Below are positions 1,982-24,608 of a stretch of 63,117 bases of DNA, piece by piece. The position numbers and the translations under genes were made by a program. The first letter of the stretch is position 1. Each line of letters begins with the position of its first letter. The notes under the pieces are model-generated. The model worked only from the letters and a program-made list of their open reading frames with translations, had not been told where the DNA came from and did no database searches. Source of the DNA: Acidobacteriota bacterium (lineage in GTDB: Bacteria; Acidobacteriota; Polarisedimenticolia; J045); the NCBI GenBank assembly GCA_025456425.1, contig JALOKP010000024.1:1-63117 (forward strand), given 5' to 3'.

Positions 1982-2943
1982 GCGTCCCGCCGCTGCCGTC
2001 GTTCGCGCCGGTGCCGCGCGGCTTCTCCTGGTCCGCGACCCGCCACGGCGCCTTCACCGACTGCCCGCGCGCCTATTTCTACGGCTACTACCTGGCGAAG
2101 GGGCGTGCCGACGGCGCCGACCTGGAGCGCGCGCGGCTGGCGGCGCGGCTGGCCGCGCTGACCTCGCTGCCGATGTGGGTCGGCTCGCGGGTTCACGACG
2201 CGATCGAGGGGCTGCTGCGCGAGGCGCTGGGCGGCGGCCCGGCCGAGGTCGAGCCGGCGATCGAGCGGATGGTGGCGCGGATGCGCCGCGACTACGCGGC
2301 CAGCCGCGACGGGGACCAGCTCGTCGCGGACGACCCGCGCAGCGTCGCCCGCTTCGCCGAGCACGAGTACCCGCACCTGGCCGCCCGTGACGAGGACTGG
2401 CGCACGCGGGTGGGCGAGGCGCAGGAGATGGTCCGGGCCTTCGCGGCGCAGGGCTATCTGGACGCCGCGCGCGCGCTGCCGCGCGAGGCGCAGGCGTCGG
2501 TCGAGCGGCTCGAGAAGTTCGCGCTGGACGGCGTCGACGTCTGGGTGAAGATCGACTTCGCCTGGCGCGACGGGCAGGGGCTGGTCCACATCGTGGACTG
2601 GAAGACGGGGAAGCAGGAACGCGGCGAGAATCCGCTCCAGATGCTGGTCTACGCCGGCTACGCGCGGAAGGTCTGGAAAGCCGAGCCGGAGCGGCTGCGG
2701 GTGCGCGAGGTCTACCTGCGACAGCCCGACCCCGAGCGCCCCTGCACGATCACCGCGGAGACGATCGGCGCGGCCGAGGAAGCGATCCGCGCCTCGATCG
2801 GCGCGATGCTGGCGAAGGTCTCGGACCGAGCGCTCCACCGCGCATGCGAGGCCGACTTCGAGCTGGCGGCGTCGGCGCGCCCGTGCCGTGGCTGCTTCTT
2901 CCGCGCGATCTGCCCCGCGCCCCGCGACGCGGGGGGACCGTGA
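1978..2943 (+). CDS. PD-(D/E)XK nuclease with Cas4/RecB-like iron-sulphur cysteines
   Basis: RecB-family nuclease of 321 residues with a GTG start overlapping the nudix stop. The catalytic core is visible as VWVKIDFAW followed by VHIVDWKTGK (Asp, then Asp-x-Lys), with a later Gln-Tyr helix (QMLVYAGYAR). An N-terminal Cys in FTDCPRAY and a C-terminal C-x2-C-x5-C (CRGCFFRAIC) form the four-cysteine pattern that binds a 4Fe-4S cluster in Cas4 and AddB. No cas gene or repeat array is near, so a DNA-repair or housekeeping role is more likely than CRISPR adaptation. It overlaps the downstream sigma factor gene by 4 nt, which makes the three genes look like one transcription unit. Confidence 0.85.
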   Translation: MSVPPLPSFAPVPRGFSWSATRHGAFTDCPRAYFYGYYLAKGRADGADLERARLAARLAALTSLPMWVGSRVHDAIEGLLREALGGGPAEVEPAIERMVARMRRDYAASRDGDQLVADDPRSVARFAEHEYPHLAARDEDWRTRVGEAQEMVRAFAAQGYLDAARALPREAQASVERLEKFALDGVDVWVKIDFAWRDGQGLVHIVDWKTGKQERGENPLQMLVYAGYARKVWKAEPERLRVREVYLRQPDPERPCTITAETIGAAEEAIRASIGAMLAKVSDRALHRACEADFELAASARPCRGCFFRAICPAPRDAGGP

Positions 2944-4013
2944 GCGCGCGCCGCCGCCGCCCGGCGGAGGCCGAGCCGGAGCGGGTCGTGGACGCGGAGA
3001 TCGTGCGGGAGGCGGACGGCGCGGCTCCCGCCGACGGCGAGATCGGGCCGGTCGAGGAGCTGCTGGCTGCGGACCTCCCCGAGGGCCTCGTCCCGGCCGC
3101 GGCGGAGCACGAACTGGCCCGGGCGCTCGCCCCGGTCAGCGGGCGCGGGCTTCCCGCGCGGCTCGACCCGACCGCTCGCTACATCGCGGAGGTACGCGCG
3201 ATCCCGCCGCTCGCGGCCGAGGAGGAAGCGCGGCTGGCACGGCTCTTCCGCGACACCGGCGACCGCGACGCGGCGGCTCAGCTGGTCAACGCGAACCTGC
3301 TGCTGGTGGTCAAGCTGGCGCTGATGTACCGCCGCTTCGTCGAGAACCTGATGGACCTGGTGCAGGAGGGGAACGTCGGGCTGATGGAGGCGGTGAAGCG
3401 CTTCGACCCGGAGCAGGGGAGCCGCTTCTCAACCTACGCCGCATGGTGGATCAAGGCGTACATCCTGAAGTACCTGCAGGACAACCGTCGGATCGTCCGC
3501 TTCGGCACCACCAACGACCGCCGCAAGCTGCTCTACCACCTGCGCAGCGAGCAGGCCAAGCTGGCCGCGCAGGGGGTGCAAGCCACGCCGAAGCTGCTCG
3601 CGGCCCGGCTGGACGTCTCCGAGAGCGACGTCGTCGAAGCCGAGAAGGTGCTGGCGACGCGGGACGCGTCGCTGGACCAGCCGCTGACGGCCGAGGGGAC
3701 CGCGACCCTGGCTGACGTGCTGGCGGACGACGAGGCCGACGCGGAGCAGCGGGTCATCGCGGAGGACCTGCAGGGGCGGACGCGTCGCGCGCTGGAGGAG
3801 TTCCGGTCGACGCTGTCGGAGCGCGACCGCGCGATCCTCGACCAGCGGCTGGGGGCGCTGGACGAGGCGACGCTGCAGGAGCTGGGGGACAGGTTCGGCG
3901 TCACGCGCGAGGCGATGCGCCAGGCGGAAGTGAAGCTGCGCCAGCGGCTGGCGGCGTTCCTGAGGGACCGGCTGGGGGACGACGTCATCCGCGGGATGAT
4001 CGGCGGGGGGTGA
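2940..4013 (+). CDS. RNA polymerase sigma factor, RpoH-like (sigma-70 family)
   Basis: Alternative sigma factor of about 357 residues. The GTG at 2940 overlaps the upstream stop (GTGA). Region 2 is strongly conserved (LMDLVQEGNVGLMEAVKRFDP, then FSTYAAWWIKAYI). It is followed by RRKLLYHLR, the counterpart of the RpoH box that separates sigma-32 from primary sigma factors. Region 4 carries a helix-turn-helix (LQELGDRFGVTREAMRQAE). The N-terminal 70 residues are acidic and poorly conserved. There is no region 1.1 or large non-conserved insert, so it is not the primary sigma factor. A heat-shock or general stress role is inferred from family. The coupling to a nudix enzyme and a nuclease is unusual. 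Confidence 0.85.
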   Translation: MSARRRRPAEAEPERVVDAEIVREADGAAPADGEIGPVEELLAADLPEGLVPAAAEHELARALAPVSGRGLPARLDPTARYIAEVRAIPPLAAEEEARLARLFRDTGDRDAAAQLVNANLLLVVKLALMYRRFVENLMDLVQEGNVGLMEAVKRFDPEQGSRFSTYAAWWIKAYILKYLQDNRRIVRFGTTNDRRKLLYHLRSEQAKLAAQGVQATPKLLAARLDVSESDVVEAEKVLATRDASLDQPLTAEGTATLADVLADDEADAEQRVIAEDLQGRTRRALEEFRSTLSERDRAILDQRLGALDEATLQELGDRFGVTREAMRQAEVKLRQRLAAFLRDRLGDDVIRGMIGGG

Positions 4014-4662
4014 GCGGGGCCCGGGTCCGGGTGCGTCGGGATGGTGCGGCGCGGCTGCGGCGGGGGTGTGGCGCGAGCGCTCGGGGCGAAGGGGAGCGAA
4101 GAGGTGGCGGGGCGTGGCGCGGGCCAAGCCGGCTCTGTGCGGCGCGATCCGGCACCGGGTCCCGTCTCGGGGCGACAGAGCCCCTTCGAATGCACCTCAG
4201 CCGAGACGGAGCCCCCTTGGGTGCACCTTCGGCCCTCATCGTGGGGATCCTGCCGCGCAGAAGCTCCCCGGAAACCGCCGCAGGGCGCGGGTATTGGTAG
4301 AGACGGGCGCGACGGAGCCAAGGGCGAAGCGCGCGACAGGCCTTCAATCCGGTCGAAAGCGTGCGCTCATGGGGGCTCCGTCTCGGCTGAGGTGCATTCG
4401 AGGGGGCTCTGTTCCTGAATGGGACCGGGTGGCCCGTCGGCCCCGCGTCGCTGCCCGTTCGACGGGCCCGAGCGAATCCTACTCCGCGAGCCCCTGGCGC
4501 GCGCGCAGCTCGCAGCCCGTACGGACGCCGGCGCCACCCAGCGCGTGCCTCGCGCGTCGCCAGCGCCCCACTTGACCGCAGCGCGAGCCCCCCCGACTCT
4601 GGTCGCGCCTTGACCGATGCAGGCCGGCCGCGGTTGCGTCGCGGCCGGAAAAGGAGCTCTCG
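4014..4662 (+). other. Gene-free 650-bp spacer
   Basis: No coding region with family similarity or credible codon structure was found on either strand between the sigma factor and the YciI-like gene. The main structure is a long inverted repeat, listed separately. The sequence from 4590 to 4662 should carry the promoter and ribosome site (AAAAGGAG ending about 9 nt before ATG 4663) of the next gene. Confidence 0.5.
4175..4412. repeat. 42-bp inverted repeat with 154-bp loop
   Basis: Bases 4175-4216 and 4371-4412 are reverse complements at 41 of 42 positions; the single mismatch is in the C/G run. The left arm is itself followed by a diverged second copy of its start (GAGCCCC, TGCACCT), giving a partial tandem of about 31 nt. 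The loop encodes nothing obvious. It could be a non-autonomous mobile element (MITE-like), a large structured RNA or a recombination site. I saw no second copy in the window and no target-site duplication. Confidence 0.75.
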
Positions 4663-5130
4663 ATGCGACGCTTTGCGCGGACCTTGTGGGTGGCCCTGAT
4701 CCTCGCCGGTGCCGGCGTGCTGGGCGCGGGCGCCGAGGACTCGAAGTCGGCCCCGACGATCACGATGAAGACCTACTACCTCGGCCTAATCCGGAGGGGT
4801 CCGGCGTGGACGCCCGGCGACACGCCCGAGATCCGCGCGATCCAGGAAGGGCACATGGCGAACATCCGCCGTCTGGGGGCGGAGGGGAAGCTGGTGCTGG
4901 CCGGGCCGTTCCTGGACGACGGCGACCTGCGGGGGCTCTTCCTCTTCGAGGTGGGCTCCCTGGAGGAGGCGAAAGCGCTGTGCGAGACCGATCCCGCGGT
5001 GAAGGCGGGCCGGCTGGTGGTCGAGGTCCACCCGTGGATGGGGCCGGAGGGGCTGACCTTCCGCGGTGCCCTCCCACGGCCGACCGCACCGCCGCCGCCA
5101 GCACCCGCCGCGGGACCGGGAGCGAAGTAG
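4663..5130 (+). CDS. Exported YciI-like domain protein
   Basis: 155-residue protein with a clear Sec signal peptide (MRRFARTLWVALILAGAGV, cleavage near AGAEDS). The YciI/dimeric alpha-beta barrel-like body has the hallmark stretch HMANIRRLGAEGKLVLAGPF, followed by an acidic-residue strand and a VVEVHPWM end. YciI domains are small ferredoxin-fold units of unknown chemistry, usually cytoplasmic, so the export signal is the notable point. The C-terminus is a proline/alanine-rich tail of about 25 residues. The gene stands alone ahead of the acetyltransferase run. Confidence 0.75.
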   Translation: MRRFARTLWVALILAGAGVLGAGAEDSKSAPTITMKTYYLGLIRRGPAWTPGDTPEIRAIQEGHMANIRRLGAEGKLVLAGPFLDDGDLRGLFLFEVGSLEEAKALCETDPAVKAGRLVVEVHPWMGPEGLTFRGALPRPTAPPPPAPAAGPGAK

Positions 5131-23192: not shown

Positions 23193-24608
23193 TCAGCGCG
23201 CCACGAACAACAGCCATGGTACGCCGACCAGCAGGTAAACCAGCAGGTTGAAGACGGTGGTGAGGGCCCCCAGCTTGTACAGCTCTCCCTGGGTCAGGTA
23301 GCCGCTCCCCGCGAACAGCAGGTTGGCGCTCGAGCCCTGCGGCGTGTTGGCGGAGAAGTAGTTGGTGGCGAACAGCAACTGGAAGGCGAGCGGCGCGACC
23401 GGCACGCCGAGCTTGACGCCGACGTCGAGGAACACGCCGAACAGCGCCAGCAGGTGCGCGGTCTGGCTCACGAACAGGTAGTGCAACAGGACGTACGCGA
23501 CCACGAGGACCAGGCCGGTCACCAGCGGCGAGAGCCCCCCGAGCCCGCCGGCCAGCCGCTCGCCGAGGTAGCTCATGAACCCCAGCTCGTTGAGCTGGCC
23601 GCTCAGCGTGAAGAGGACCGCGAACCAGATGAAGGTCGCGAGGACGTCCCCCTCCTTCGCGATGTCGGCGAGCGTCAGGACCCCGGTCGTCAGCAGCACG
23701 CCGAGCCCGAGGAAGGCGATCGCGGTCGAGTCCAACCCGAGCGTCGCCGCCGCGGCCCAGAGCGCCACCATCCCGACGAAAGTCGCGGCGACGATCTTCT
23801 CGTCCCGGCTCAGCGGGCCCATCGCGGCCAGCGCCCGGCGCGCGGCGTGCGGGGCCTCCGGCGTCGCCGTGACCTCGGGCTTGATCAGCTTGTAAAGGAA
23901 CAGCGGCAGCAGCGCCATCGCCGCGAGCGTCGGCACCGACGACGCGACGAGCCAGGAGCCGAAACCGATCGTCAGGCCGTAGCCGCGCGCGATCTCGGAT
24001 CCCAGCGGATTTGCCGCCATCGCCGTCAACCACAGCGCCGACGAGACGGTGAGGCTGGCCATCCCGGAGAACATCAGGAAGCTGCCGAGGCGCCGCCGGT
24101 CCGGCCTGTCGAGCTTCGCGCCGGCCGCTTCGGCCACCGACAGCGCCAGCGGGTAGAGCACGCCGGAGCGCGCGGTGTTGCTGGGGAAGGCCGGCGCGAT
24201 CACGCCGTCGACCAGGAAGATGCTGTAACCGAGCCCGAGCGTGGAGCGCCCGAAGAGGCTGACCACGAGGTGACCGAGCCGCTCGCCCAGGCCGCACTTC
24301 ACGACGGCTCGGGCGACGAGGAAGGCGACGACGATCAGCAGGATCGTCCCGTTGGCGAAGCCGGAGTAGGCCTTGGCCGGGGCGAGCGTGCCGGTCAGGA
24401 CAGCCGCGGCGAGCGCGAGCACGGAGGCGGTCAGGATCGGGAAGGCGCCGATCACGACCGCGGCGATCGCGGCGAGGAAGAGCCCGAAGAGGTGCCACGC
24501 CTCGGGAACGAGCCCCTCCGGCACCGGCGAGAACCAGATCGCCAGCGCCAGCGCGATGACGATCGCGCGCAGGACGAGCGTCCTGCGCGCTGGGGTCGCG
24601 CCGCTCAC
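23193..24608 (-). CDS. DASS-family dicarboxylate/anion transporter (CitT/SdcS type)
   Basis: 471-residue divalent anion transporter with about 11-12 membrane helices. Both pseudo-symmetric substrate motifs are present: SNT within FPSNTARSGVLYP, and its counterpart in SANTPQGSSANLLF. These bind carboxylate and sodium in VcINDY-type carriers. Likely substrates are C4-dicarboxylates such as fumarate, succinate or malate, which fits the aspartase upstream. The GTG at 24608 overlaps the stop of the preceding gene by 4 nt; an ATG further up would intrude into that gene. Confidence 0.85.
   Translation of the reverse strand: MSGATPARRTLVLRAIVIALALAIWFSPVPEGLVPEAWHLFGLFLAAIAAVVIGAFPILTASVLALAAAVLTGTLAPAKAYSGFANGTILLIVVAFLVARAVVKCGLGERLGHLVVSLFGRSTLGLGYSIFLVDGVIAPAFPSNTARSGVLYPLALSVAEAAGAKLDRPDRRRLGSFLMFSGMASLTVSSALWLTAMAANPLGSEIARGYGLTIGFGSWLVASSVPTLAAMALLPLFLYKLIKPEVTATPEAPHAARRALAAMGPLSRDEKIVAATFVGMVALWAAAATLGLDSTAIAFLGLGVLLTTGVLTLADIAKEGDVLATFIWFAVLFTLSGQLNELGFMSYLGERLAGGLGGLSPLVTGLVLVVAYVLLHYLFVSQTAHLLALFGVFLDVGVKLGVPVAPLAFQLLFATNYFSANTPQGSSANLLFAGSGYLTQGELYKLGALTTVFNLLVYLLVGVPWLLFVAR

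Follow-up and report, generated by a model that had tools for sequence, protein, structure and literature searches.

What a near-perfect inverted repeat is doing in a gene-free spacer, and to which kind of system it belongs, is the question raised by positions 4014 to 4662 of the window, i.e., the whole 63,117-nucleotide stretch of Acidobacteriota DNA analysed here. This 649-bp intergenic gap houses the element between a sigma-70-type gene, in which sigma-70 regions are present and which ends at 4013, and a gene with a YCII domain, the start of which is at 4663. The inverted repeat itself is as the earlier note described it, with arms at 4175-4216 and 4371-4412 paired at 41 of 42 positions around a loop of 154 bp, and a repeat search could extend the pairing to 52 nt at 92%. 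It is the top inverted repeat within 500 bp across the window (score 40, versus 13-16 in eight dinucleotide-preserving shuffles of the whole window), and the RNA folding of 4140-4440 comes out 11 standard deviations better than that of shuffles. With a probability of roughly two in three, it is regarded here as a gene-free element, in which bipartite 31-bp units form two head-on arrays on either side of a loop of near-fixed length with a position-locked core, and which belongs to a RAYT-type HUH transposase with a DnaA domain IV.

As for its structural organisation, each arm is built of a tandem pair of units spaced exactly 31 bp apart, those of the left arm being on the plus strand and those of the right arm on the minus strand (Table 1). 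The units are bipartite, namely two kept half-sites separated by a freer spacer. A diverged half-copy had been noticed next to the left arm; there is indeed a repeat at this place, which is really part of the second tandem unit. Considered as hairpins, none of six single units folds better than shuffles (z from -0.9 to 1.2). Runs of four or more T or A are absent from 4140-4440, in agreement with the lack of a T-tract initially pointed out, and no terminator-like site is present there.

Table 1. Coordinates of the parts of the focal element, of its sister copies and of features beside related genes (positions without a prefix are those of the window).
Feature	Position	Strand	Basis or remark
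Degenerate outward-facing partial unit, left of left arm	4157..4170	-	14 nt at 86%; weak
Left outer 31-bp unit	4172..4202	+	unit mapping
Left inner 31-bp unit, containing the half-copy of the earlier note	4203..4233	+	unit mapping
Loop	4234..4353		130 nt between 26-nt unit ends; sisters 129 and 131 nt
GAAACC, candidate core	4271..4276	+	offset 42 from left inner unit; sequence, putative function
Degenerate partial unit within loop	4308..4319	+	repeat search; weak
Right inner 31-bp unit	4354..4384	-	unit mapping
Right outer 31-bp unit	4385..4415	-	unit mapping
Sister copy on contig C86	~24229-24500		BLAST, own MAG; 2 units left, 3 right
Sister copy on contig C216	~2204-2568		BLAST, own MAG; 5 units left, 3 right
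GC-rich 17/34-bp satellite adjoining the C86 element	L037:4558-4837
Transposase genes beside arrays, not in one frame	L070:3879-4774, L074:4001-4746
Palindromes and sigma-54-like sites upstream of transposase genes	L067:101-240, L068:1298-1428, L069:330-465, L073:3870-3975
Outer-end palindromes of G009 elements	L079:1520-1571, L103:579-630, L075:1707-1758, L078:1496-1547, L076:1107-1158, L077:1496-1547
Two-sided GGGGWSAS repeats	L061:1202 and 2048-2074; L063:1181 and 2035-2062

The search of the genome for further copies, as suggested in the earlier note, brought out two of them by BLAST in the same MAG (4.28 Mb, 252 contigs, 85% complete), one on contig C86 and the other on contig C216, where its neighbours are a tilS-like gene on one side and a tRNA-Met gene on the other. 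Since only BLAST copies were counted, the number of three for this genome is a lower limit; a single-unit search with a 17-base pattern (three mismatches at most) gave 40 matches against 13 for the reversed control, of which those beyond the two of the window and one in the C86 element were assumed unrelated and left uncounted. The loops of the focal, C86 and C216 copies measure 130, 129 and 131 nt and have GAAACC in common, at offsets of 42, 41 and 42, respectively, on the plus strand for the focal copy (contig C219) and on the minus strand for the two others; apart from this motif, their alignment is no better than that of shuffled loops. In a search of 60 genomes of relatives, no DNA match to the element was found in any of the 59 others (0/59), and the unit sequence is therefore genome-specific. 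At the sigma gene, none of the 12 relatives carrying it has the element, nor is a YCII gene near it in any of them; as gene order is not kept beside the sigma gene in these 12 relatives, the empty-site comparison says nothing.

A 271-codon gene, P0001, spotted by reading the ORFs beside the C86 copy, starts at a distance of about 90 bp from it. The encoded protein matches the NCBIfam model NF047646 (REP_Tyr_transpos) with an E-value of 3e-11 and 43 bits, which is under the cut-off of 80; among Pfam models, including Y1_Tnp and Bac_DnaA_C, none matches it, and searching the whole genome with Pfam Y1_Tnp returned nothing. In the predicted structure (pLDDT 91.4, pTM 0.91), residues 1-153 match TnpA_REP 4er8 (Z 12.5, 134 aligned residues, 2.6 A; E-value of 2e-3 with Foldseek alone), and residues 170-248 match DnaA domain IV (3pvp, Z 9.0, 79 aligned residues, 2.6 A; 1j1v, Z 8.9); fold searches of this type list matches only, and the absence of other folds there carries no meaning. 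The predicted model thereby suggests a transposase where TnpA_REP is joined to a C-terminal DnaA domain IV. Close relatives of P0001 among 41 genomes of the class amount to two genes, both in the genome G009, with 56% and 54% identity, and a scan of genome contigs provided ten relatives: besides the two of G009, a single deltaproteobacterial MAG contributed three, and the remaining five come from further MAGs of proteobacteria or deltaproteobacteria. The aligned relatives have the HxH and Tyr residues in common, H43, H45 and Y100 being invariant (9 proteins), where the alignment took in nine of the ten relatives and excluded L074, which is not in one frame. The transposase genes beside the arrays of L070 and L074, neither of which is in one reading frame, correspond either to broken genes or to sequencing errors (Table 1). 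Upstream of several transposase genes are short palindromes of the GACGnnnGTC type, which are possible operators, and nearer the gene start a sigma-54-like TGGCACG-N4-TTGCA site, a possible promoter.

Considering P0001 together with its ten relatives, i.e., 11 genes, head-on 31-bp arrays were recognised by reading the flanks of seven, namely C86, L065, L066, L069, L070, L073, and L074, either upstream or downstream of the gene but always on one side only (7/7). An irregular array with a spacing of about 32 is found at L071, and none was recognised in the flanks of L067, L068, and L072, the first and last of which lie close to the end of a contig. Respective to periodicity, when lags 15-60 are compared, lag 31 comes out on top in one flank of six of the 11 genes (L065, L066, L068, L069, L070, and L074), the case of L068 resulting from a palindrome pair and not from an array; it ranks second at L073 and fourth at C86, where a 17-bp satellite and multiples of it rank higher. 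A GC-rich satellite of 17/34 bp adjoins the C86 element. In the control, lag 31 came first in none of 68 flank stretches from 34 distant Y1 loci (0/68), a set omitting L121, L124, and L131 (repeats of L043, L042, and L056) and with imprecise flank borders for truncated loci (L047, L058 and others). The unit sequences vary from genome to genome. In a genome of the same family, a strong 45-bp tandem repeat occupies the left flank of L055, beside a distant Y1 relative.

Elements of this architecture are dispersed in three genomes, namely that of the focal element (G000), G009 and G396. In G009, the unit pattern has 41 matches against 0 for the reversed pattern, and spacings are of 31 bp almost throughout the eight elements analysed, with lengths of 181, 187, 187, 208, 218, 219, 219, and 219. 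Their loops are of 75 (four elements), 106, 107, 96, and 36 nt, with a motif of their own at offset 41 in six of the eight. Many G009 elements also exhibit an extra head-to-head unit at the outer end, so that a palindrome of some 42 bp is formed. The array of L070 is found at six places in its genome, G396 (9.3 Mb), and all six elements are exactly 203 bp long, most with GCAAC...GTTGC ends and all with a loop of 87 nt. The pairwise identity of these loops is only 37-52% in the better orientation (about 27% when shuffled); with such low identity the copies are old, unlike recent jumps. Inspected by eye, the 6-nt flanks of the six G396 elements show no target duplication. At the same search sensitivity, the arrays of L041 and L074 are single copies in their genomes.

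The G396 loops yield a core, AACGCCnGTTTTCG, which is also present in the loops of L069 and L071 (0/300 shuffles each), in that of L074 (1/300) and weakly in that of L073 (27/300); its matrix has no match in the loops of G000, G009 or L041. For this core search, the loops of L069, L071, L073, L074, and L041 were delimited by eye. Six of 17 loops have GAAMCGCC at an offset of 38-47 (0.5 on average and at most 4 in shuffles), which is only suggestive, the motif having been chosen after looking.

An architecture found in several copies in its own MAG, one of them beside a transposase gene, found again beside relatives of this gene and dispersed in three genomes is best read as either a non-autonomous element or a processing site that a DnaA-domain RAYT would use, close to TIRYTs/TIRtrons in kind. 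That relatives of the element adjoin a DnaA-domain transposase suggests what the enzyme works on. As such, the 31-bp units, the spacing of which is about three helical turns, would be binding sites in double-stranded DNA that a transposase dimer reads through its DnaA-like domain; the HUH/tyrosine domain may nick DNA in single-stranded form within the loop core or close to it, and copies of the element would spread in trans without target duplications. Counting against this reading are the age of the copies, the two array-flanked transposase genes that are not in one frame (L070 and L074), the three of 11 genes at which no array was recognised (L067, L068, and L072) and the lack of a match to the G396 core in the loops of G000 and G009.

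Several other explanations have to be weighed against this one. Chance or a one-off inversion of local sequence, to which the earlier note would have reduced a repeat with neither other copies nor conservation, would account just for the near-perfect arms of the focal copy; copies and relatives exist and the score is far above shuffles, and with sister elements this explanation is refuted, keeping next to no probability. A structured RNA, also envisaged in the earlier note, or a terminator downstream of the sigma-factor gene is very improbable: the predicted fold is very stable, but neither an Rfam family nor a T-tract or terminator-like site supports it, the other copies adjoin unrelated genes, and the arms of the G396 family agree at only 61-70% over 64 nt, indicating that perfect arm pairing is not what is kept. 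A conserved hairpin with co-evolving arms was a further candidate, dropped on this agreement in G396 and on that of 62-75% in G009. The main rival is a host-maintained chromosomal site, unlikely on balance yet of some weight, where the DnaA-domain RAYT would have been retained for site-specific DNA binding or nicking at the dispersed arrays, with a role in replication- or DnaA-related control or in the regulation of neighbours. The loops of all six G396 elements are strongly diverged with unchanged length, which could just as well reflect sites maintained by the host, and the lack of target duplication by eye, the presence of only three to eight copies per genome and the DnaA-type domain point the same way; on the contrary, the unit sequence changes from genome to genome within one family, the genes next to the copies are unrelated, and the nearest relatives known are regarded as mobile. 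It is doubtful, too, that the elements are the fixed-geometry recognition sites, with phased bipartite 31-bp units and a nick-site core, of a DnaA-HUH fusion turned into a host-kept, site-specific chromosomal system for single-strand DNA processing with strict spacing, and not transposon debris; if true, RAYT domestication would be tied to replication control.

A further explanation, an improbable one, is a plain TIRtron as described for TIRYTs, its two TIRs lying on the same side of the gene. According to the available text of Di Nocera 2013 (PMC3733652), TIRYTs are RAYT-like genes flanked by long TIRs, with one group in Acidobacteria, where the TIR families are dispersed and moderately abundant, as dimers or groups, and where many repeats, though not all, share GGGGWSAS; most TIRYTs are placed in subclass 2.1 of TnpA_Y1, with HTH or DnaA-like C-terminal domains, in the available part of the survey by Quentin 2018 (PMC6006769). 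The likeness is to be found in (i) the same transposase superfamily, with a RAYT-like Y1 gene exhibiting HUH and Tyr motifs, (ii) inverted repeats unrelated to GTAG REPs, and (iii) the dispersal of repeats elsewhere in the genome (here G000, G009, and G396). While TIRs are two-sided in TIRtrons, both arms are here on one side at all seven array-bearing genes, and the tandem 31-bp units, the fixed loop and the core further differ, with GGGGWSAS in just 1 of 17 elements; the element is thus not filed as a TIRtron. Two-sided GGGGWSAS repeats with a spacing of 26-27 bp, like those of published TIRtrons, do occur in the same class and belong to other, distant Y1 genes (L061 and L063).

Respective to the transposase, a TnpA_REP core and a DnaA-type C-terminal domain, as predicted for P0001, also characterise TnpA_Y1 subclass 2.1 (2.1.2; PMC6006769, in its available part), a likeness drawn from predicted domains. 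REP-like DNA was not found beside subclass 2.1 genes in this survey, as far as its available text goes (Quentin 2018, PMC6006769), whereas a candidate partner is proposed here. RAYTs with a DnaA-like domain being a described HUH subclass, the finding proposes their partner DNA, i.e., a 31-bp lattice, a fixed loop and a core, the unit sequence of which would change along with the transposase. Recognition, cleavage and mobility thereby become directly testable for this subclass, and the geometric signature lets such elements be found despite unconserved unit sequences. Literature searches on 31-bp repeat elements and on DnaA-domain RAYTs gave no match, and novelty is limited to that scope.

Among other known systems, REP, BIME and REPIN elements with their RAYT are likewise small extragenic inverted elements tied to a Y1 transposase, but the units described here are not hairpins, have no GTAG end tag and are present in few copies, by comparison with the available part of PMC2817692. 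GTAG occurs in 7 of the 17 elements at scattered positions, mostly in loops. Classical MITEs are short, gene-free and dispersed, with inverted repeats. The MITE-like nature proposed in the earlier note is close, in so far as the gene-free inverted elements form a small, dispersed family, one copy of which adjoins a transposase gene, but the element is probably not a classical MITE with TIRs and TSD; no target duplication is seen by eye, the arms are tandem 31-bp units and no parent with matching ends surrounds the transposase gene. Iterons and DnaA-box clusters, finally, are helically phased repeats; the logic would be the same if a DnaA-type domain reads phased 31-bp units, but the present arrays have no replication gene tied to them and, judged by eye, their units are not DnaA boxes.
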